Shown here: positions 963 to 47,471 of the stretch, in pieces
Numbering within the stretch: position 1 is the stretch's first letter
Layout: each line of letters begins with the position of its first letter
From: Pseudomonadota bacterium
Lineage (GTDB): Bacteria > Pseudomonadota > Gammaproteobacteria > Burkholderiales > JABEVD01
Assembly (NCBI GenBank): GCA_021802655.1
Contig: JAJZRP010000011.1
Coordinates: forward strand, 1 to 47,916
Reading direction: 5' to 3'
DNA: 47,916 nucleotides
Made by a program: the position numbers and the translations under genes
Notes under the pieces: generated by a model
Database searches by the model: none
What the model saw: the letters and a program-made list of their open reading frames with translations, nothing else
Told to the model about the DNA's origin: nothing

Positions 963-992
963 TTGCCTGCATCGACTCCTTTTTGTTATAAA
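963..992 (+). promoter_or_regulatory. Putative sigma-70 promoter of the P-type ATPase gene
   Basis: TTGCCT at 963-968 and TATAAA at 987-992 are separated by 18 nt. The expected transcription start is at about 998-999, on the ATG itself, so the mRNA may be leaderless. No Shine-Dalgarno sequence is seen. Confidence 0.5.
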
Positions 993-997
993 GCCTG

Positions 998-3385
998 ATG
1001 CGCAAAATTTCGGATATTCCCGCCGTGAAGGAAGGCGGCCTGACCCATGAAGAGGTCGCCCAAAGGGTACGCGACGGGCAGACGAACTGGGTCAAAAAGA
1101 CCACTTCCCGCCCGGTTTCAGGAATCCTCGGCAGCAATATCGTCACCCTGTTCAACGGCATTCTGGCAGGTTCGATCGCAGCGCTGCTTTCCATCAAATC
1201 CTACAGCGACGCCCTTTTCCTGTCCATGGTGACTTTGGGCAACATGCTTGTCGGGATAGCCGGCGAACTGCGCGCCAAATGGGCGCTGGACAGGATAGCC
1301 CTGCTGCGCAGGAAGACCGCGGTCGTGATCAGGGAAGGGCTGGAGATCGAAATCAGGAGCGAGGAGGTCGTCAGGGACGACCTGGTCGTTTTCGGCCCGG
1401 GCGACCAGATCGTCGCGGACGGCATCCTGGTCTCGTCCGTGCCGGCCTTCATGGACGAATCCCTGCTCACCGGAGAATCGCATGCCGTGGAGAAAAGGCG
1501 CGGGGAGGCGGTTTTCTCCGGAAGCTATTGCATGAGGGGATCGGGGCGTTACGTCGCAACCGGCGTGGGAACCGAATCCAGGGCCAACGCGCTTTCCGAG
1601 CAGGCGCGGAAATACAGGAACATGCGCTCCCCCCTTCAGCACGATGTCAATTCGATCATTCAGGTTCTGACTGCGGTGATGGTCCTTTTCGTGCTGCTCC
1701 TGCTGCTGGCGAATTTCATCAAGCAGGTGCCGGTCGCTGCCAATATCCTTTCCATCGTGACCGTGATCAAATCCCTGGTTCCAGAAGGGCTGGTGCTGAT
1801 CCTGACGCTCGCCTTCGCACTCGGCTCATTGCGCGCCGCAAAGCGCCATGTGCTGGTGCAGCGGCTTTGCGCCATCGAATCCATGAGCCACATCACCACC
1901 CTTTGCATGGACAAGACCGGAACCCTCGGCACCAACAGGCTGAATTTCGAGGAACTCGTCTTTCTGGATTCTTCCTACGACGAGACGGTGCGCAGGATAA
2001 GGCTTTTCACGGCATCCGTCGGGGAGAAGAACCAGACCCTGCTCGCCATCGAAGCGAAGTATCCCGGCATGCGCTGCGAAGTCCTCGATGAATTCCCCTT
2101 TTCTTCCGGGCAGAAGATGAGCGCCGTGCGGGTGAGGGATGAGGATGGAAGTGAAATTTCCTTGTGGCTCGGGGCGCCGGAAGCGCTTTGCGGGAGAAAC
2201 CTGAGCGCTTCGCAGGAATCGATGCTGACGGATTTCAGGCAGAAGGGATTTCGCGTGCTTGCATTCGGCGCGACATCGCAGCCCATTCCTCATAGGGAGG
2301 AACTTTCCCTTCTGGCCTTCATCGTGCTGCGCGACGAACTCAGGCCCGATGTCGCGGATGCGATCCGGTTCTACGAGTCGCGCGATGTCAGGCTCAAGAT
2401 TCTTTCCGGGGATCATCCGGAAACCGTTGCGGCTCTGGCCAGGGAAGCCGGAATGTCGGTGCACGGTGATCTTCTGAACGGCGAGGATTTGCCGCCCACG
2501 GGCTCCCCGGAATTTTCAGGAGCAATTGCGCGCGGCCAGTTTTTCGGGCGCCTCGATCCGCAGCAGAAAATGCAGATCGTCAAGTGCCTGCAGGAATCGG
2601 GAGAATTTGTCGGCATGGTGGGCGACGGGCTCAACGACATCCCTGCACTCAAGCAGGCCGATATCGGAGTCGCCATGAACAGCGGATCTGCCGCGGCGAG
2701 AGATGTCTCCGACATCATCCTCCTGAAGGATGCCTTCACCTATCTTCCCGCAGCTTCCGAGGAAGGCGACAGGATCATCTACAACATCAGGCGCGTCTCC
2801 CGGCTCTTCCTCACCAAGAACATTTACACGCTTTTCTTCATTCTGTTCTCCGGCTTCGTAGGGCTGGAATTCCCGCTGAGCCCGCGCTACATTACCTGGA
2901 TAGATATGCTCACCATAGGCATTCCCACGACGATCCTGACTTTCATGACTCCCGTGTTCAAGAGGCAGTCCCTCGAGCATTTCTTGTACGATACGACCAA
3001 GTTCGCCCTTGTCACCGGATTCGCCATCGCCTTTTTTTCCCTGTTCGTTTACGTCAATTTCTATTTTATGGACAGCGATCCCATGGAAGGGAGAACCGGC
3101 GCGGTTTCCGTCATTGTGTTCATGGCGCTCTATGCCGTGTTTCGCGTTTCCGTCATCGAAAGGGGGGCTTCTGCCACCTGGCGCCAGCGCTGGGGAGTAT
3201 GGGCGATTCTGGGGGGCGCTGTGCTTTTCCATATCGTTGCGGTTTACAGTTCGCTCATGGATGGCTTTTTCGGCCTGACATCAATGGGACCTTTCGAGTG
3301 GATTGTCGTGGTCGGGATTGCCTCTGTCGGGATGTGGGTGATTCACCGCCAGTTGCTGCGCGCGGGCGTTTCGGATGTCGGCTGA
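998..3385 (+). CDS. Cation-translocating P-type ATPase, CtpE-like (P2-type)
   Basis: This 795-residue membrane ATPase couples ATP hydrolysis to cation movement across the inner membrane. TGES (158-161, actuator domain), the PEGL motif in TM4 (262-265), DKTGT with phosphorylated Asp305, and GDGLND (542-547, hinge of the P domain) are all present. About four hydrophobic segments follow in the C-terminal third. There is no N-terminal CxxC heavy-metal domain and no CPC motif in TM4, which argues against a P1B copper/zinc pump. The compact form and the N-terminal GLTHEEVAQRV segment resemble the CtpE-type ATPases linked to calcium uptake in mycobacteria; that substrate is inference. The start at 998 leaves 13 residues before the conserved region. 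It heads a group with ClC and DUF1614 genes, which suggests a role in ion balance. Confidence 0.85.
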   Translation: MRKISDIPAVKEGGLTHEEVAQRVRDGQTNWVKKTTSRPVSGILGSNIVTLFNGILAGSIAALLSIKSYSDALFLSMVTLGNMLVGIAGELRAKWALDRIALLRRKTAVVIREGLEIEIRSEEVVRDDLVVFGPGDQIVADGILVSSVPAFMDESLLTGESHAVEKRRGEAVFSGSYCMRGSGRYVATGVGTESRANALSEQARKYRNMRSPLQHDVNSIIQVLTAVMVLFVLLLLLANFIKQVPVAANILSIVTVIKSLVPEGLVLILTLAFALGSLRAAKRHVLVQRLCAIESMSHITTLCMDKTGTLGTNRLNFEELVFLDSSYDETVRRIRLFTASVGEKNQTLLAIEAKYPGMRCEVLDEFPFSSGQKMSAVRVRDEDGSEISLWLGAPEALCGRNLSASQESMLTDFRQKGFRVLAFGATSQPIPHREELSLLAFIVLRDELRPDVADAIRFYESRDVRLKILSGDHPETVAALAREAGMSVHGDLLNGEDLPPTGSPEFSGAIARGQFFGRLDPQQKMQIVKCLQESGEFVGMVGDGLNDIPALKQADIGVAMNSGSAAARDVSDIILLKDAFTYLPAASEEGDRIIYNIRRVSRLFLTKNIYTLFFILFSGFVGLEFPLSPRYITWIDMLTIGIPTTILTFMTPVFKRQSLEHFLYDTTKFALVTGFAIAFFSLFVYVNFYFMDSDPMEGRTGAVSVIVFMALYAVFRVSVIERGASATWRQRWGVWAILGGAVLFHIVAVYSSLMDGFFGLTSMGPFEWIVVVGIASVGMWVIHRQLLRAGVSDVG

Positions 3386-3402
3386 GAAACTCGCGGGGGT
3401 TG

Positions 3403-3431
3403 TTCAGAGCTTCCTGAAACTCTGATATACT
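3403..3431 (+). promoter_or_regulatory. Putative promoter of the ClC gene
   Basis: TTCAGA at 3403-3408 and TATACT at 3426-3431 are 17 nt apart. The predicted +1 is base 3438, the A of the ATG, and no Shine-Dalgarno sequence lies between. The -35 match is weak (4 of 6). Confidence 0.4.
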
Positions 3432-3437
3432 TTTTCC

Positions 3438-4775
3438 ATGCAGAACCGCTTTTACCGCCGCTCGAAATACATCTGGTTTTCGACCAGCCACTGGAAGCGC
3501 AGGCTCATATTCTGGGGCGGAGCGGTTTGCGTCGGGATGGTCGCGGTGCTGTTCGCAGTCGCAAGCGCCTATGCCAACGACATATTCCACGATCTGATCA
3601 ACGTCTCTCCCTATCTGCCGCTGCTCGTCACCCCTTTGGGACTTGCCATGGTGGTTGCCATCACCCGCAAATACTTTCCCGGTTCTCAGGGGAGCGGCAT
3701 TCCGCAAACCATCGCCGCGCTCAAGATTGCGGACCCTGAAGCGCGCGAATCGGTGCTTTCCCTCAGAATCGCGGCGGGGAAGGTTTCCATGACCCTGCTC
3801 GCTCTTTTTTCGGGCGCATCCGCAGGGCGCGAAGGACCGACCGTTCAGATCGGCGCATCGATCATGCATGCCCTGGGACGCCTGGGTTTCTTTTCAAGAG
3901 TCGACGTCGAGCGCAGCCTGATTCTGGCAGGGGGAGCGGCAGGAGTCGCTGCCGCATTCAACACTCCGCTTGCGGGCATCGTTTTCGCCATCGAGGAAAT
4001 GAGCCGCTCCTTCGAGGAACGCACCAGCGGCGCGGTCCTGACGGCCATTATCGTGGCAGGGATGGCGTCCCTGGCGATGCTCGGCAACTACACTTATTTC
4101 GGCCATACCAACGACTCCCTGGGATTCAGCCAGGGCTGGATTTACGTTCTGATTTGCGGCGTCGCGGGAGGCATCATGGGCGGAATATTCAGCCTGACGC
4201 TGCTCAATGCGGACAGGATGATGCCGCAGAGAGTGGGCGTTTTCATGAAGGAATACCCCGTCCGGTTCGCCGCAGCCTGCGGCTTGGTTCTCGCACTCAT
4301 CGGAATTGTATCCGGCAGTTCCACCTACGGCACGGGCTACAGCGAAGCCAAGCATATCCTGGAAGGCACTTCCAGCATTCCGCAGGACTACGGCATACTC
4401 AAGATGCTCGCCACCATCGTTTCCTACCTGAGCGGCATACCCGGCGGGATATTCGCCCCCTCCCTTGCAGTGGGCGCGGGCTTCGGAGCCAACCTCGCCG
4501 ATGTGTTCGCCGATGCGCCTGCCGGTGCGCTGGCAACTCTCGGCATGGTCGCCTATTTTTCAGGCGTGGTCCAGGCGCCGATCACGGCTTTCGTCATCGT
4601 GATGGAAATGACCGACAACCATAACATGACCATCCCGTTGATGGCGGCTTCCATGATCGCCTACGCGGTTTCCCGCATCGTCTGCCCAACGCCCCTCTAC
4701 AAAACGATGGCGGCAAGTTTTCTCGCCCGCGCGAATTCGAACAGGGAAACGCAAGACAGGCTGGATCATCCCTGA
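3438..4775 (+). CDS. ClC-family chloride channel or Cl-/H+ antiporter
   Basis: This 445-residue polytopic membrane protein carries the three ClC selectivity motifs: GSGIPQ (85-90), GREGP (130-134, gating Glu132) and GGIFAP in the C-terminal third. FAIEE (183-187) supplies a glutamate at the place of the proton glutamate of E. coli ClcA (Glu203 there), so coupled 2Cl-/H+ exchange is more likely than a passive channel. The C terminus ends shortly after the last membrane segment, without CBS domains. The gene starts 52 bp after the P-type ATPase, and an anion antiporter could balance charge moved by that pump; this is inference. The ATG at 3438 has no ribosome site upstream. Confidence 0.92.
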   Translation: MQNRFYRRSKYIWFSTSHWKRRLIFWGGAVCVGMVAVLFAVASAYANDIFHDLINVSPYLPLLVTPLGLAMVVAITRKYFPGSQGSGIPQTIAALKIADPEARESVLSLRIAAGKVSMTLLALFSGASAGREGPTVQIGASIMHALGRLGFFSRVDVERSLILAGGAAGVAAAFNTPLAGIVFAIEEMSRSFEERTSGAVLTAIIVAGMASLAMLGNYTYFGHTNDSLGFSQGWIYVLICGVAGGIMGGIFSLTLLNADRMMPQRVGVFMKEYPVRFAAACGLVLALIGIVSGSSTYGTGYSEAKHILEGTSSIPQDYGILKMLATIVSYLSGIPGGIFAPSLAVGAGFGANLADVFADAPAGALATLGMVAYFSGVVQAPITAFVIVMEMTDNHNMTIPLMAASMIAYAVSRIVCPTPLYKTMAASFLARANSNRETQDRLDHP

Positions 4776-4816
4776 AAAATCGGGTTTAATGGAATAAACT
4801 GTTCAGGGATGGCATC

Positions 4817-5410
4817 ATGCCGATGCGCTTTTTGCTGCTCGTCGCAGCCTTCATGTTTTTTGTGGCATTCGTCCAGATCGGCATTCTGACGATCGCTTTC
4901 GACAAGCTCGGGCTTTCCGCCGAGTCCGCCTATCTCCTTTTCATGACCATCCTGTTCGGGAGCATGATCAATCTTCCGCTTTTCGACATGAAGGCGGAAG
5001 CGGAAGAAGGTGCGACCCGGATTACGGTCAATGTCGGGGGGTGCGTCGTTCCCGTTGCGTTCTGCATTTATCTCCTGAAGCATCATTCGTTCGAGCCCGC
5101 AGCCCTCCTGACCGCGGTTTCTGTTGTCACCCTCCTGAGCTGGAAGGTGAGCCGCCAGCTTCCTGGAATAGGCATAGGGATGCCTGTCTTTCTCGCGCCT
5201 GTCACTGCGGCAGCCATATCCTATCTGCTCGATGCCAGGCAGGCTGCGCCGCTTGCCTATATCAGCGGAACCCTGGGGGTGCTGATCGGTTCCGACCTGC
5301 TGCATCTGAAGGAGTTGAAGAAAATGGGCGCGCCCATCGCTTCCATAGGCGGGGCGGGAAGCTTCGACGGCATCTTCATTACAGGGATCGTGGCGGCGCT
5401 TCTCGCCTGA
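4817..5410 (+). CDS. DUF1614 family integral membrane protein
   Basis: This 197-residue protein has about six hydrophobic segments. The family-like blocks NVGGCVVP near the middle, GVLIGSDLLHL and the terminal GGAGSFDGIFITG are clear, and the length fits DUF1614 proteins. No function is established for the family. The conserved Gly-Asp motifs at membrane borders would suit a transporter or membrane enzyme, but that is speculation. It lies 41 bp after the ClC gene and 15 bp before the next gene. The ATG at 4817 has a weak purine-rich site (CAGGGATGG) upstream. Its placement beside two ion transporters makes a membrane-transport or ion-related role plausible. Confidence 0.75.
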   Translation: MPMRFLLLVAAFMFFVAFVQIGILTIAFDKLGLSAESAYLLFMTILFGSMINLPLFDMKAEAEEGATRITVNVGGCVVPVAFCIYLLKHHSFEPAALLTAVSVVTLLSWKVSRQLPGIGIGMPVFLAPVTAAAISYLLDARQAAPLAYISGTLGVLIGSDLLHLKELKKMGAPIASIGGAGSFDGIFITGIVAALLA

Positions 5411-5413
5411 TGC

Positions 5414-5419
5414 TATCAT
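5414..5419 (+). promoter_or_regulatory. Possible -10 element of the exported unknown gene
   Basis: TATCAT ends 7 nt before the ATG at 5426. No convincing -35 is seen at 16-18 nt. The CCGGGG run touching the ATG is too close to act as a Shine-Dalgarno sequence. Confidence 0.25.
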
Positions 5420-5425
5420 CCGGGG

Positions 5426-6052
5426 ATGAATTGGATCCGCATCGCGTTCTTTTTTTCGGCTCTGGTCTTTGGCGCGCAGGCTTTCGCAGGAGGCTCCCTT
5501 CTCGAGAAGATCGACGCCTTGAAGGCGCAGGGCAGGCTACCCGGGCTCGCCCGGGACGGCATCATCCTGCCGCGCGCGCTGCTGCTGGATGAACTGAAAA
5601 AATCCGTCGATTCGAAGAAAACCGAAGTGAAGGATCTGATCCTGACCCCCGAACAGGGAACCGTTGTCCTGGTTACTCGAAATTCAGTGGATACCGAACT
5701 CAGGGTGGATTTCAAATTTCTCGAGGTGGACTGGCCGAACCGCACTGTCTGGATGCAATATTCCGAGGAAGCCAGTTCGGCGAGCGACACCCTGCTCGGG
5801 CGGATTTTCGGCACCATTGCGATTGCCGCCTTCCAGGCGGCGTCGGGCTCGGATCGGGTCGAATCCGCCATCGAAGGAAAGCCCTACTTCAAATCCGAGG
5901 GGAATCGCATCGGGATCATGCTGGATAAAATTCCTTCCCTCGAAAAACCGCTTTCGACCACGGTGGGGCGCTTCAGGCTGTTCGACCTGATCGGGATCAG
6001 GCGGATCGATACCGAACAGGACGCGATACACGTCGCCCTCGGACTCGTTTGA
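5426..6052 (+). CDS. Exported protein of unknown family
   Basis: This is a 208-residue protein I cannot assign. Residues 1-21 form a Sec signal peptide with a hydrophobic core ending in AQAFA, so the mature protein should be periplasmic or outer-membrane associated. There is no lipobox cysteine and no further obvious membrane span, although a small-residue segment around residues 130-145 is mildly hydrophobic. The mature protein has alternating hydrophobic and charged stretches suggestive of beta strands (for example VVLVTRN and LRVDFKFLEVDW), and no cysteines. It follows the DUF1614 gene by 15 bp, and its stop overlaps the likely -35 of nadK. It may belong functionally with the preceding ion transporters, on position alone. 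Confidence 0.75.
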   Translation: MNWIRIAFFFSALVFGAQAFAGGSLLEKIDALKAQGRLPGLARDGIILPRALLLDELKKSVDSKKTEVKDLILTPEQGTVVLVTRNSVDTELRVDFKFLEVDWPNRTVWMQYSEEASSASDTLLGRIFGTIAIAAFQAASGSDRVESAIEGKPYFKSEGNRIGIMLDKIPSLEKPLSTTVGRFRLFDLIGIRRIDTEQDAIHVALGLV

Positions 6053-6077
6053 ATTTGTCCTGTACGCATGGTTTAAT
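6049..6077 (+). promoter_or_regulatory. Putative nadK promoter
   Basis: TTGAAT at 6049-6054 and TTTAAT at 6072-6077 are separated by exactly 17 nt. The predicted +1 is 6084-6085, at the ATG. The -35 overlaps the stop codon of the upstream gene. Confidence 0.5.
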
Positions 6078-6084
6078 CGCACCC

Positions 6085-6957
6085 ATGGAAAACCATTTCA
6101 AAACCGTCGCGCTGATCGGGAAATACAAGAGTCCGGAGATCGCAGAACCCCTCGCACGCCTCGGGAAATTTCTCGAAGGCCGGGGCATTTCCGTGATCCA
6201 GGACAAGCTGACCGCGGACAACGTCGCCGGGAGCGATTTCCCCGTCCTCGATCTCGACGAGATAGGCAGGGCCGCCGATCTTGCGATCGTTCTGGGGGGC
6301 GACGGCACCATGCTCAACATCGCGAGGACTCTCGCCCCTTACGGGGTCGCGCTGGTTGGCGTGAACCAGGGCAGGCTGGGGTTTCTCACCGACATTTCCA
6401 TCGATTCCATGCTGGAAACCATAGGCGCCATGCTCGACGGCAACTATGTCACCGAGAACAGGATGCTGCTGGAAGCCTGGGTCGTGCACAAGAATGAGAA
6501 AGTGTTCAGCGGACTCGCCTTCAACGACGTGGTCGTCCACCGCGGCATCACCGGAAGCATGATCGAATTCGAGGTCAGGATAAACGGGCTGTTCGTCTAT
6601 ACGCAAAGATCCGACGGGCTGATCGTCGCAACCCCGACAGGCTCGACCGCCTATGCACTCTCTTCCGGAGGGCCCATCCTCTATCCGGGGCTTCCCATGA
6701 TCGCGCTGGTTCCCGTCAATCCGCATACCCTGAGCAACAGGCCGATCGTGATCGGCGGGGATTCGCTTATCGAGATCATCATGAAGAAAAGCGGCGATTC
6801 GCGCGTGCATTTCGACAGCCACTCCCATTGCGACCTCAAGGAAGGGGACAGCGTTTTCGTGAGGCGGTACGAAAAAATGATACGCCTGCTCCATCCCCAG
6901 GGGCATAACTATTTCCATACGCTGAGGGAGAAGCTGCACTGGAGCGAGAGCTTCTGA
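6085..6957 (+). CDS. nadK: NAD kinase
   Basis: This 290-residue cytoplasmic enzyme phosphorylates NAD+ to NADP+ with ATP or polyphosphate. It has the signature GGDGT (71-75, catalytic Asp73), NQGRLGFLTD, the DGLIVATPTGSTAY nucleotide-binding block and NPHTLSNRP near the C terminus. The frame stays open upstream to a TTG at 6049, but family proteins begin close to ENHFKTVALIGKY and the ATG at 6085 fits. No Shine-Dalgarno sequence precedes it and the -10 ends 7 nt upstream, so a leaderless transcript is possible. The stop overlaps the recN ATG (TGATG at 6955-6959), so the two are translationally coupled. Confidence 0.95.
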   Translation: MENHFKTVALIGKYKSPEIAEPLARLGKFLEGRGISVIQDKLTADNVAGSDFPVLDLDEIGRAADLAIVLGGDGTMLNIARTLAPYGVALVGVNQGRLGFLTDISIDSMLETIGAMLDGNYVTENRMLLEAWVVHKNEKVFSGLAFNDVVVHRGITGSMIEFEVRINGLFVYTQRSDGLIVATPTGSTAYALSSGGPILYPGLPMIALVPVNPHTLSNRPIVIGGDSLIEIIMKKSGDSRVHFDSHSHCDLKEGDSVFVRRYEKMIRLLHPQGHNYFHTLREKLHWSESF

Positions 6958-44854: not shown

Positions 44855-45940
44855 TCAGTTCTTCGCGCCCTTTTTCAAAGCAAGTTGCCTGCTTTTTTCT
44901 GCTTCGGCCTGGTCTGGTACTGTCATCCAGCCCTGGAGGTTTTCCAGTGCGATGTTGGAAAGCGCGTGCATCCATTTATCGCTCTCGTTGAGCGCTGGAA
45001 TGTAGTTGAATTCCCCGCCCCCTGCATTGAGGAAAGCCTGCTTTACTTCCATGGCGATTTCTTCCAGTGTTTCCAGGCAGTCGCTGACAAACCCGGGGCA
45101 GACGACATCCACTCTCGAGAGCCGCTGTTTTCCCGTTTTCTCAATAACTTCCAAGGTATAGGGTTTGAGCCACTCGGCGCGTCCGAAACGGGACTGGAAA
45201 GTGATGATATATTGATCTTCGAGAAGACCCAGGGCTTCCCCGAGCAGCCTCCCGGTTTTCAGGCATTCGCAATGATAGGGGTCTCCCAGGTCGAGCGTGC
45301 GCTTAGGGACGCCGTGAAAGCTCATCACCAGTTTTTCGGGTTTGCCGTGTTGATTCCAGAAGGTGGAGATGTTGCTAGCGAGCGCTTCGATGTAGCCCGG
45401 ATGGTCGTGAAAATGCTTGATGATGCGCAATTCGGGCGGGTTCCGCATGGATTTTAGGGCCTCGAAAACGGAATCGAATACCGTGCCCGAAGAGCTTGCC
45501 GCATACTGGGGGTAGAGCGGGATGACGAGTATTCCGTCGCACCCTTTTCCCTTCATGCCATTCAGGACGCTCTTTATGGAAGGGTTCCCGTAGCGCATCG
45601 CGTATTCGACCAGGAGTGGTGCGTCTGTTTTTTGTGCGAGATACGCTCTCAACAGATTCGCCTGTTTTTCCGTGTGGAATTTCAGCGGCGATCCTTCGTT
45701 TGTCCAGATCGACGCATATTTTTTTGCCGATTGGGCTGAGCGGGTATTGAGGATGATGCTGTTCAGGATCAGCCACCATAGCGGTTTTGGAATCTCGACC
45801 ACCCTGGGGTCGGAAAGGAATTCCCGGAGATAGGGTTTCAATGCCGCCTTCGTGGGGGCATCGGGCGTGCCGAGATTGACGATCAGTATGCCGGTCTTTT
45901 TGGTTTGGCCGTGCCGATAAGCGGGTTCTGTTTTTGACAT
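44855..45940 (-). CDS. hemH: Ferrochelatase
   Basis: This 361-residue enzyme inserts Fe2+ into protoporphyrin IX in the last step of protoheme synthesis. The catalytic His209 is in [10 protein letters not shown] and the second active-site residue Glu319 is in LNES. Cys residues in YHCEC and [10 protein letters not shown] are present, but assigning a [2Fe-2S] cluster from them would be speculative. The start ATG 45940 overlaps the hrcA stop (TGATG), so translation is coupled. A longer frame to 46090 is only the shadow of hrcA. Confidence 0.96.
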
Positions 45941-46953
45941 CAGTGTTGGGAAAGTGCGCCGCTCAGAAGTTTGGCCGTGATGTCGACGATGGGGATGATG
46001 CGTTCGTAAGCCATGCGTTTGGGGCCGACGACTGCCAGCGTGCCGACGATGCGGCCTTCGGCGCCATAAGGGGCGGTAACGATGCTGCATTCATCGAGTT
46101 GTCCAACGCCGGACTCTGCCCCGATGAAGATTTGCACGCCCTGGGCGTTTCGGCTCGCATCAAGAAGCTGCAGCAGGGCTGTTTTCTTTTCGAAAAGATC
46201 GAAGAGCCCCTTCAGGCTCGATAGGTCTGAAGAAAGATCCTGAACCTGGAGCAGGTTATGCTCGCCGGAAATGATGCATTCTTCCTCCAGATCTGCCCGC
46301 GTGGAAGTCTCTATTGCCGCAGACATCAGTTCGCTGACGTTGTGCTGGAGCTGGTGGAGCTCTTCTTTTACCCGTCTGTGGATTTCATTCAGCGTGAGTC
46401 CGGCATAATTCCGGTTCAGGTAGTTCGAAGTTTCGGTCAATTCCGATGGCGTATAGGTTTTTTCGGTGAAAATGACCCTGTTTTGAACATCGCCATTCGA
46501 GGTGATGATGATCAGGAGGATGCGTTTTTCGGAGAGCTTCAGAAATTCGATCTGGCGGAAGGCCAGTGCTTCCCGTTTCGGCGCAATCACCACGCCCGCG
46601 AAACGGGTCAACTCGGATAATAGATGGGATGCGGAGCTGATGAGGCGAGAAGGATTGTCGGGAAGCAGGTTTTCGCCGAGCTGTTCGATTTCCATCTGCT
46701 CCAGGGGCTTGACCACGAGCAGGCTGTCGACGAAGAAACGGTAACCCTTCGCGGTTGGAACTCTTCCTGCGGAGGTGTGGGGGCTTTCGACGAATCCGAG
46801 CGCTTCGAGGTCGGCCATCACGTTGCGTATGGATGCCGAACTCAGTTCGAGCCCGGAATAGTGCGAAAGCGCGCGCGAGCCTACAGGCTGGCCTTCCTCG
46901 ATGTATCTTTCGATCAGGGTCTTGAGCAGGACTTGGGCGCGGTCATTCAGCAT
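45940..46953 (-). CDS. hrcA: Heat-inducible transcription repressor HrcA
   Basis: This 337-residue repressor binds CIRCE operators and is folded by GroEL. The N-terminal winged helix (about 1-75) contains the family block [26 protein letters not shown], followed by [20 protein letters not shown]; the GAF-like dimerisation part follows. No CIRCE inverted repeat is seen before hrcA, grpE, dnaK or dnaJ, so its targets must lie elsewhere. The ATG at 46953 has no Shine-Dalgarno sequence, and TAAAAT ends 7 nt upstream. Confidence 0.96.
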
Positions 46954-46959
46954 GGTTCG

Positions 46960-46965
46960 ATTTTA
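46960..46965 (-). promoter_or_regulatory. Possible -10 element of hrcA
   Basis: TAAAAT on the minus strand places the predicted +1 exactly on the A of the hrcA ATG (46953). The best -35 candidate, TTAACC, is only 15 nt away, so this assignment is weak. Confidence 0.35.
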
Positions 46966-46982: not shown

Positions 46983-47471
46983 TTAAGCTGTTCCGCTTCT
47001 GATGACATCCCGCAGTTCCCTGAAGAAGGCACGGAACTGCTTGGGAGGCTTTTCTGCCAGCCTGTCCTTCTGGATGCTGCGCACGAGATTCCTGATATGG
47101 GTCATGTCCGCATGAGGGTAGGTTCTCGCGAATTCCTCGAAGGCATTGGCTTCGTCGAGGAGCCGGGTTCTCCACCGCTCCACCAGATGAAGCTCGGTTG
47201 CATTTTCTTTCGATTGTGCATCCCAAAGGGCGAGCTTTGCCCTGATTTCGTCCACTTCGATTTCGCGCATCAGCTTGCCGATGTACTGCATCTGGCGCCT
47301 GATCGCGCCGAACTGGGTGAGGCGTTTGGCTTCCCTGACCGCATCCAGCAGGCTTTCCGGCAAGCCGAGTTCCTGAAGGCGTTGTGGGGAAAGTTCCACG
47401 AGCAGTTCGCCGGTGACCTGGAGAGCCTGCATTTCTTTCTTGCGGCTGGTCTTGCTCTGTTCTTCTTGCAT
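46983..47471 (-). CDS. yjgA: Ribosome-associated protein YjgA/DarP (DUF615)
   Basis: This 162-residue, highly charged, mostly helical protein has the family pattern SRKKEMQALQ near the N terminus, then RLTQFGAIRRQMQYIGKLMRE and the C-terminal AFFRELRDVI. Its E. coli counterpart associates with pre-50S particles and aids peptidyl-transferase centre maturation. The ATG at 47471 is preferred; an in-frame ATG at 47492 lies in the middle of a 24-bp palindrome. No clear ribosome site precedes either. It follows dksA and precedes hrcA by 29 bp. Confidence 0.9.
   Translation of the reverse strand: MQEEQSKTSRKKEMQALQVTGELLVELSPQRLQELGLPESLLDAVREAKRLTQFGAIRRQMQYIGKLMREIEVDEIRAKLALWDAQSKENATELHLVERWRTRLLDEANAFEEFARTYPHADMTHIRNLVRSIQKDRLAEKPPKQFRAFFRELRDVIRSGTA

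Follow-up and report, generated by a model that had tools for sequence, protein, structure and literature searches.

Leaderless genes, usually portrayed as few and scattered among proteobacteria, are already established in the Betaproteobacteria, both by prediction (PMC3160421) and by mapped transcription starts (PMC4603805, PMC7563307). According to the main texts of these reports, the TA-led genes of Zheng et al. (2011; PMC3160421) carry a TANNNT-type -10 element about 12 bp before the start in place of a Shine-Dalgarno (SD) sequence and occur in 9 of 71 beta-proteobacterial genomes, at an average of 6.8% of genes; measured transcription in Burkholderia cenocepacia J2315 begins exactly at the start codon in 72 genes and within 10 nt of it in 42 more, with a TA-rich motif just upstream of the leaderless genes and transcription regulators over-represented among them (PMC4603805); and in Cupriavidus metallidurans CH34 leaderless mRNAs arise from 4.67% of primary starts, have a TAnAAT -10 consensus and are enriched in transcription and repair classes (PMC7563307). 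Here we consider five genes in a 47,916-nt stretch of DNA (the window; contig JAJZRP010000011.1 of assembly GCA_021802655.1), which corresponds to contig C7 in a draft genome of 2.01 Mb (88% complete) whose closest named relatives are betaproteobacterial metagenome genomes. The genes for a P-type ATPase, a ClC-type chloride channel, an exported protein, NAD kinase (nadK) and the heat-inducible repressor HrcA (hrcA) very probably have a sigma70 -10 element placed at the start codon and would thus be leaderless, a state that appears ancient for hrcA and nadK and labile for the other three. More telling than any coordinates in the window is the predicted leaderless state of hrcA and nadK as an old trait of the order ("order" being that of the window, inferred to be Burkholderiales, and "class" the Gammaproteobacteria in the GTDB sense).

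Hexamers were accepted as 5/6 matches to TATAAT, the gap being the number of nucleotides between the end of the hexamer and the start codon, and SD sequences were assessed as the longest anti-SD match and counted as present at 4 nt or more. The features of nadK and hrcA are:

6049..6054, + strand: -35-like TTGAAT of nadK, 17-nt spacer, read by hand, overlapping the stop codon of the upstream gene
6069..6077, + strand: extended -10 of nadK (TGG TTTAAT), hexamer TTTAAT at 6072-6077, gap 7 to ATG 6085
6085..6957, + strand: nadK (NAD kinase), predicted leaderless (NCBIfam NF002561, 1.1e-128)
46960..46965, - strand: -10 TAAAAT of hrcA, gap 6 to ATG 46953
45940..46953, - strand: hrcA (heat-inducible repressor), predicted leaderless (NCBIfam TIGR00331, 3.7e-97)

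One hundred genomes, sampled evenly across the order, gave hrcA matches in 90 cases, of which 89 starts were read (the fragmentary matches of G197 were dropped). Of the same 89 stretches, 67 allowed nadK to be read; widening the start window raised this to 68, with the hexamer in 48. A hexamer lies at gaps 5-8 in 61 of the 89 hrcA loci, versus a shuffled mean of 2.9 (maximum 7, n=300), and in 45 of the 67 nadK loci, versus 2.2 (maximum 7, n=300); counted by family, the figures are 37/47 and 25/38, and the neighbouring gene recN, used as a control, has the hexamer in 0 of 78 loci of the sample. The gaps at hrcA are sharply distributed: 6 nt at 36 loci, 7 nt at 21, and no more than 2 loci at any single gap in the ranges 0-5 and 12-26. 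Anti-SD matches of at least 5 nt are found at 1/89 hrcA and 2/67 nadK starts in the order (7/47 for nadK outside it), and among named loci the hexamer is present at gaps 4-8 in 51 of 80 for nadK and 62 of 70 readable ones for hrcA. Outside the order (49 other genomes of the class and Escherichia coli K-12; taking best matches first, hrcA was read in 29 of 64 genomes having the gene and nadK in 49 of 85), the hexamer is seen at hrcA in 2/29 loci, or 2/26 by a stricter test, and at nadK in 0/30 and 2/20 (both at alternative upstream starts), or 2/47 by the stricter test; nadK of E. coli K-12 has no such hexamer. The layout at hrcA and nadK is therefore most likely an old trait of the order, conserved in most sampled families. 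Outside the order, nadK in L302, L310, L311, L313 and other loci has a recurring TGCTAA(G/C)TTT-like block about 20-40 nt upstream, which looks like the leadered counterpart promoter of nadK in other Gammaproteobacteria.

The hexamer also follows the start codon when the latter moves. HrcA has an N-terminus 3-12 residues longer in many relatives, and the hexamer is then found 6-7 nt before the new ATG rather than at the old site. In the 62 hrcA matches of the named loci, the start used precedes the homologous Met by 0, 9, 15, 18, 21, 27 or 36 nt, and the hexamer is nearly always 6 or 7 nt ahead of that start. The promoter thus seems to be coupled to the start codon, and its -10 hexamer probably shows where HrcA truly begins, a position that SD-based annotation may misplace. 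This is of practical weight for annotation: HrcA start codons in the order differ by as much as 36 nt and are beyond the reach of SD-based callers. The loci L030-L100 display this variation as an upstream extension of 0-36 nt between lineages.

The other three genes, and the neighbour of hrcA, have the following features:

963..968, + strand: -35-like TTGCCT of the P-type ATPase promoter, 18-nt spacer, read by hand
987..992, + strand: -10 TATAAA of the P-type ATPase gene, gap 5 to ATG 998
998..3385, + strand: P-type ATPase gene, predicted leaderless (Pfam E1-E2_ATPase, 4.6e-42)
3403..3408, + strand: -35-like TTCAGA of the ClC promoter, 17-nt spacer, 4/6 match, read by hand
3426..3431, + strand: -10 TATACT of the ClC gene, gap 6 to ATG 3438
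3438..4775, + strand: ClC-type chloride channel gene, predicted leaderless (Pfam Voltage_CLC, 4.8e-95)
5414..5419, + strand: -10 TATCAT of the exported-protein gene, gap 6 to ATG 5426
5426..6052, + strand: exported-protein gene, predicted leaderless (no Pfam or NCBIfam family matched)
46983-47471, - strand: yjgA, directly upstream of hrcA (NCBIfam NF003593, 3.1e-50)

No NCBIfam equivalog matched the P-type ATPase above its cutoff. All five starts (P-type ATPase, ClC, exported protein, nadK, hrcA) have a 5/6 match to TATAAT, at gaps of 5, 6, 6, 7 and 6, and a longest anti-SD match of 3 nt. A preliminary description of the window had noted a hexamer near the ATG and a missing SD sequence at four of these genes and comparable spacing at hrcA (here TAAAAT), which checks out at 5/5 starts, as do the -35-like hexamers at 17-18 nt in three genes (18 at the P-type ATPase, 17 at ClC and nadK); the exported-protein gene has no obvious -35-like hexamer by hand reading. 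The hexamer-to-ATG distance, given there as 6-8 nt, has to be corrected to 5-7 nt, and the "run" of genes is interrupted between the ClC and exported-protein genes by DUF1614 (ATG 4817), which has no such hexamer. Because the window was selected for these genes, their clustering in it (P 0.0007) is given no weight.

Among close relatives, the TATAAA of the P-type ATPase gene and its ATG spacing are kept in three of the four that are readable (L022, L023, L025) and lost in L026, and the -35 element reads TTGCCT, TTGTCT and TTGCTT at an unchanged 18-nt spacing in L023, L025 and L022, respectively, and is altered in L026. The ClC -10 element has an identical gap in only one of four relatives (L023); L022 has TATACT with the ATG further downstream, and L026 and L027 have SD-type starts instead of the hexamer. 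Of seven relatives readable at the exported-protein gene, five (L038, L021, L025, L026, L027) have TATCAT or TATGAT at gap 6 and two (L022, L024) lack it, L023 being unreadable. Since these three layouts come and go among close relatives, they look like young, reversible states. The exported protein itself (5426-6052) is 53-91% identical in eight close relatives, where its gene adjoins DUF1614 and nadK.

Of the alternative explanations, the one that survives best holds that the -10 elements are real and that the main transcripts come from upstream promoters or read-through, giving an SD-free leader and leaving the near promoter a minor role. The ClC, exported-protein and nadK genes closely follow genes on the same strand and hrcA lies 29 nt behind yjgA, making read-through likely, and the ClC gene of L022 likewise fits this explanation. 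However, upstream promoters would require neither the conserved spacing to the start codon nor a hexamer that shifts with the start of hrcA. The divergent arrangement of hrcA and nadK argues in the same direction: where the two are divergent neighbours, fewer than 60 nt separate the start codons in 11 loci, and in 7 loci only 28-38 nt lie between the ATGs; there the nadK -10 element is at gap 6 or 7, as is that of hrcA in 5, so that there is almost no space for leaders. Back-to-back divergent -10 boxes between start codons 28-37 nt apart can be seen in L158, L206, L166 and L179, and the 28-nt spacer of L158 has each box 6 nt from its ATG. On balance, we consider dominant upstream transcripts unlikely. 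In the relatives of the window hrcA and nadK are apparently unlinked (10/10 checked loci hold only one of them), and both have the layout; compaction alone therefore does not maintain it.

The anatomy of the nadK promoter bears on a second alternative. The logo of 83 non-redundant nadK loci has T at 0.75 in position -15 and G at 0.86 in position -14 (TGn ahead of the -10), the sequence T-R-T-G-G before the hexamer is conserved though it was no part of the selection, and no -35 element is conserved across the order; together these point to an extended -10 promoter, with TTGAAA or TTGAAT at the matching -35 place in eight close relatives. The hrcA logo has TGTG right before TAGAAT (G 0.72 at -13, T 0.54 at -14, G 0.53 at -15, T 0.60 at -16), which stands out of the usual extended -10 register. 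The A/T-rich block could instead be a translation element (e.g., an S1-binding or unstructured region), and A/T-rich blocks before SD-less starts are known in some groups, as described in the main text of PMC3160421, but the block seen here has the fixed bases of a defined hexamer, follows a T-R-T-G-n extended -10 at nadK and differs between nadK (TTTAAT) and hrcA (TAGAAT) at equal spacing, which makes such an element highly improbable.

Genome-wide enrichment was assessed over 903,416 bases of the window's own genome (60 stretches and the window) with a simple codon-usage gene caller whose choice of start is blind to upstream motifs, against dinucleotide shuffles (n=200; the order-wide null for hrcA and nadK used n=300). 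Hexamers at a gap of exactly 6 occur at 10 of 706 starts versus 2.2 in shuffles (maximum 8), while no single gap from 0 to 5 or from 7 to 10 has more than 2; ATG starts without an SD have 11/267 at gaps 5-7 versus 3.1 (0/200 shuffles as high). With the window excluded the effect is weaker: the gap-6 peak persists for ATG starts, at 7/493 versus 1.8 (shuffle maximum 5), and is less distinct for all starts, at 7/662 versus 2.0 (maximum 10). The genome-wide -10 peak near the ATG that the preliminary description had proposed to look for thus appears at the exact gap of 6; the broader gaps are unconvincing and the effect is modest. Its remark that clear ribosome sites are the rule among the other genes was too strong, with an SD of at least 4 nt at 196 of 441 starts. 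Hexamers at gaps 5-7 precede 14/706 starts, some of them falsely (kamA has an SD), and the layout is perhaps used by some 1-2% of the genes of this organism. Further members suggested by the motif in its genome are mltB, radA, pepP, queA, nfi, trmB, hisD and a diguanylate-cyclase gene, and a whole-genome spacing search gave 168 matches for gaps 0-24, including 33 at gaps 5-7. A scan of the class for TGGTTTAAT-N6-ATG matched 35/114 genomes and says little, only one other genome of the order having been sampled; the gap in the window's own genome is 7, unlike the 6 of the scan.

Among the best 30 matches of 60 searched genomes for each gene, a leaderless-like layout occurs at radA in 2/30 and at trmB in 4/28 (two of them GTG starts preceded by the hexamer at 7-8 nt), mainly in the window's own genus, and at pepP in 4/30 and queA in 7/30; these four genes are without the deep conservation of hrcA and nadK. 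The start region of hisD in the same genome (L425:8710, - strand) is near-identical to that of hrcA (TTTCGTGTAAAATCGAA, then the ATG 2 nt on) and is possibly a copied or convergent promoter. The idea that every gap-6 hexamer marks a leaderless gene was rejected: homology removed folE2, whose relatives have a promoter further up and an SD start, and kamA carries an SD of 5 nt.

Several of these results weigh against the proposed leaderless reading. The genome as a whole is modestly enriched, and once the window is set aside the signal is clear for ATG starts at gap 6 and nowhere else; at gaps 5-7 the count outside the window is 9/662 versus 5.9 for all starts, which 24/200 shuffles equal and which is not significant, and 6/246 versus 2.8 for ATG starts without an SD, equalled in 13/200. 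The motif yields false positives in the genome itself (folE2, with a likely true start 24 nt downstream preceded by an SD, and kamA). The 5/6 hexamer is missing at 28/89 hrcA and 22/67 nadK loci, some of which have weaker hexamers in place (TTAAAT, TAAACT) and some none. Additionally, the hrcA and nadK starts were chosen by homology and by the hexamer itself, which favours positives; shuffles and controls were handled identically. Chance matches picked from A/T-rich spacers, which would suit the gap 5-7 result outside the window as well as folE2 and kamA, are the least probable explanation of all, given that conservation at hrcA and nadK is far above shuffles and controls and that the hexamers of the P-type ATPase and exported-protein genes are kept in relatives. 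The sequences give good support to leaderless initiation in a subset of genes, above all through conservation of the spacing; this is not peculiar to the organism, because the layout of hrcA and nadK is kept in most sampled families of the order. A distinct translational response to stress or initiation-factor levels, suggested in the preliminary description, may follow, as the general literature would lead one to expect.

Classically, the hrcA gene is autoregulated through the operator CIRCE (controlling inverted repeat of chaperone expression), and older comparative work described HrcA/CIRCE control of rpoH in Betaproteobacteria. With at most 3 mismatches of 18 allowed within 200 nt upstream of hrcA, CIRCE was found at 0/89 loci of the order (2 have sites with 4 mismatches, and the best site of the window has 8) and in 21/29 genomes outside it. 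Elsewhere in the genome CIRCE is present in 89/100 genomes of the order, mostly as two sites, and its co-occurrence with hrcA agrees in 97/100 (88 with both, 9 with neither; the exceptions are G143, G185 and G164). In view of sites elsewhere and none at hrcA, HrcA still has targets, but within the order its own gene has probably escaped its repression. The sites of the window's own genome (L016:2294-2318 and L016:10928-10952, contig C17) lie upstream of groES-groEL and rpoH.

From the observed hexamers, their spacing and conservation, the missing SD sequences, the coupling to the start codon, the extended -10 and the distribution of CIRCE, we infer where transcription starts, how translation proceeds and what follows for regulation. 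The housekeeping sigma70-type polymerase would transcribe all five genes from their -10 elements (an extended -10 at nadK), and the placement of these would make transcription begin on the A of the ATG or about a base from it at most. The resulting mRNA would have no leader and no SD, and would be translated by the leaderless route. At hrcA and nadK this layout would be old in the order and retained by selection, and at the P-type ATPase, ClC and exported-protein genes younger, gained and lost among close relatives. The hrcA layout goes with the absent CIRCE operator, and HrcA would then probably be produced without self-repression. A tentative and rather doubtful scenario is that, early in the order, the divergent hrcA-nadK region was rebuilt, CIRCE was lost and start-codon promoters were gained, and that selection keeps both genes leaderless, even after their separation, so that low levels of HrcA and NAD kinase continue to be supplied steadily when SD-dependent initiation is impaired (e.g., under heat or ribosome stress); the steady-supply role in particular is a guess.

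If leaderless through most sampled families, hrcA and nadK provide a natural test set for the use of leaderless initiation, and one that falls in cultured Burkholderiales with good genetics. Searches of open-licence papers found no match for a conserved leaderless hrcA-nadK case, a weak negative given that subscription journals are mostly uncovered. The main text on B. cenocepacia J2315 (PMC4603805) leaves both hrcA and nadK unnamed, and that on C. metallidurans CH34 (PMC7563307) names neither. The CIRCE-autoregulated hrcA involves the same repressor family, and CIRCE sites are still present in the genomes of the order, whereas hrcA in the order is without CIRCE. The TA-led genes of PMC3160421 share the -10 signal in place of the SD; in contrast to that study, the main text of which does not mention hrcA, single genes (hrcA and nadK) are followed here through one order.

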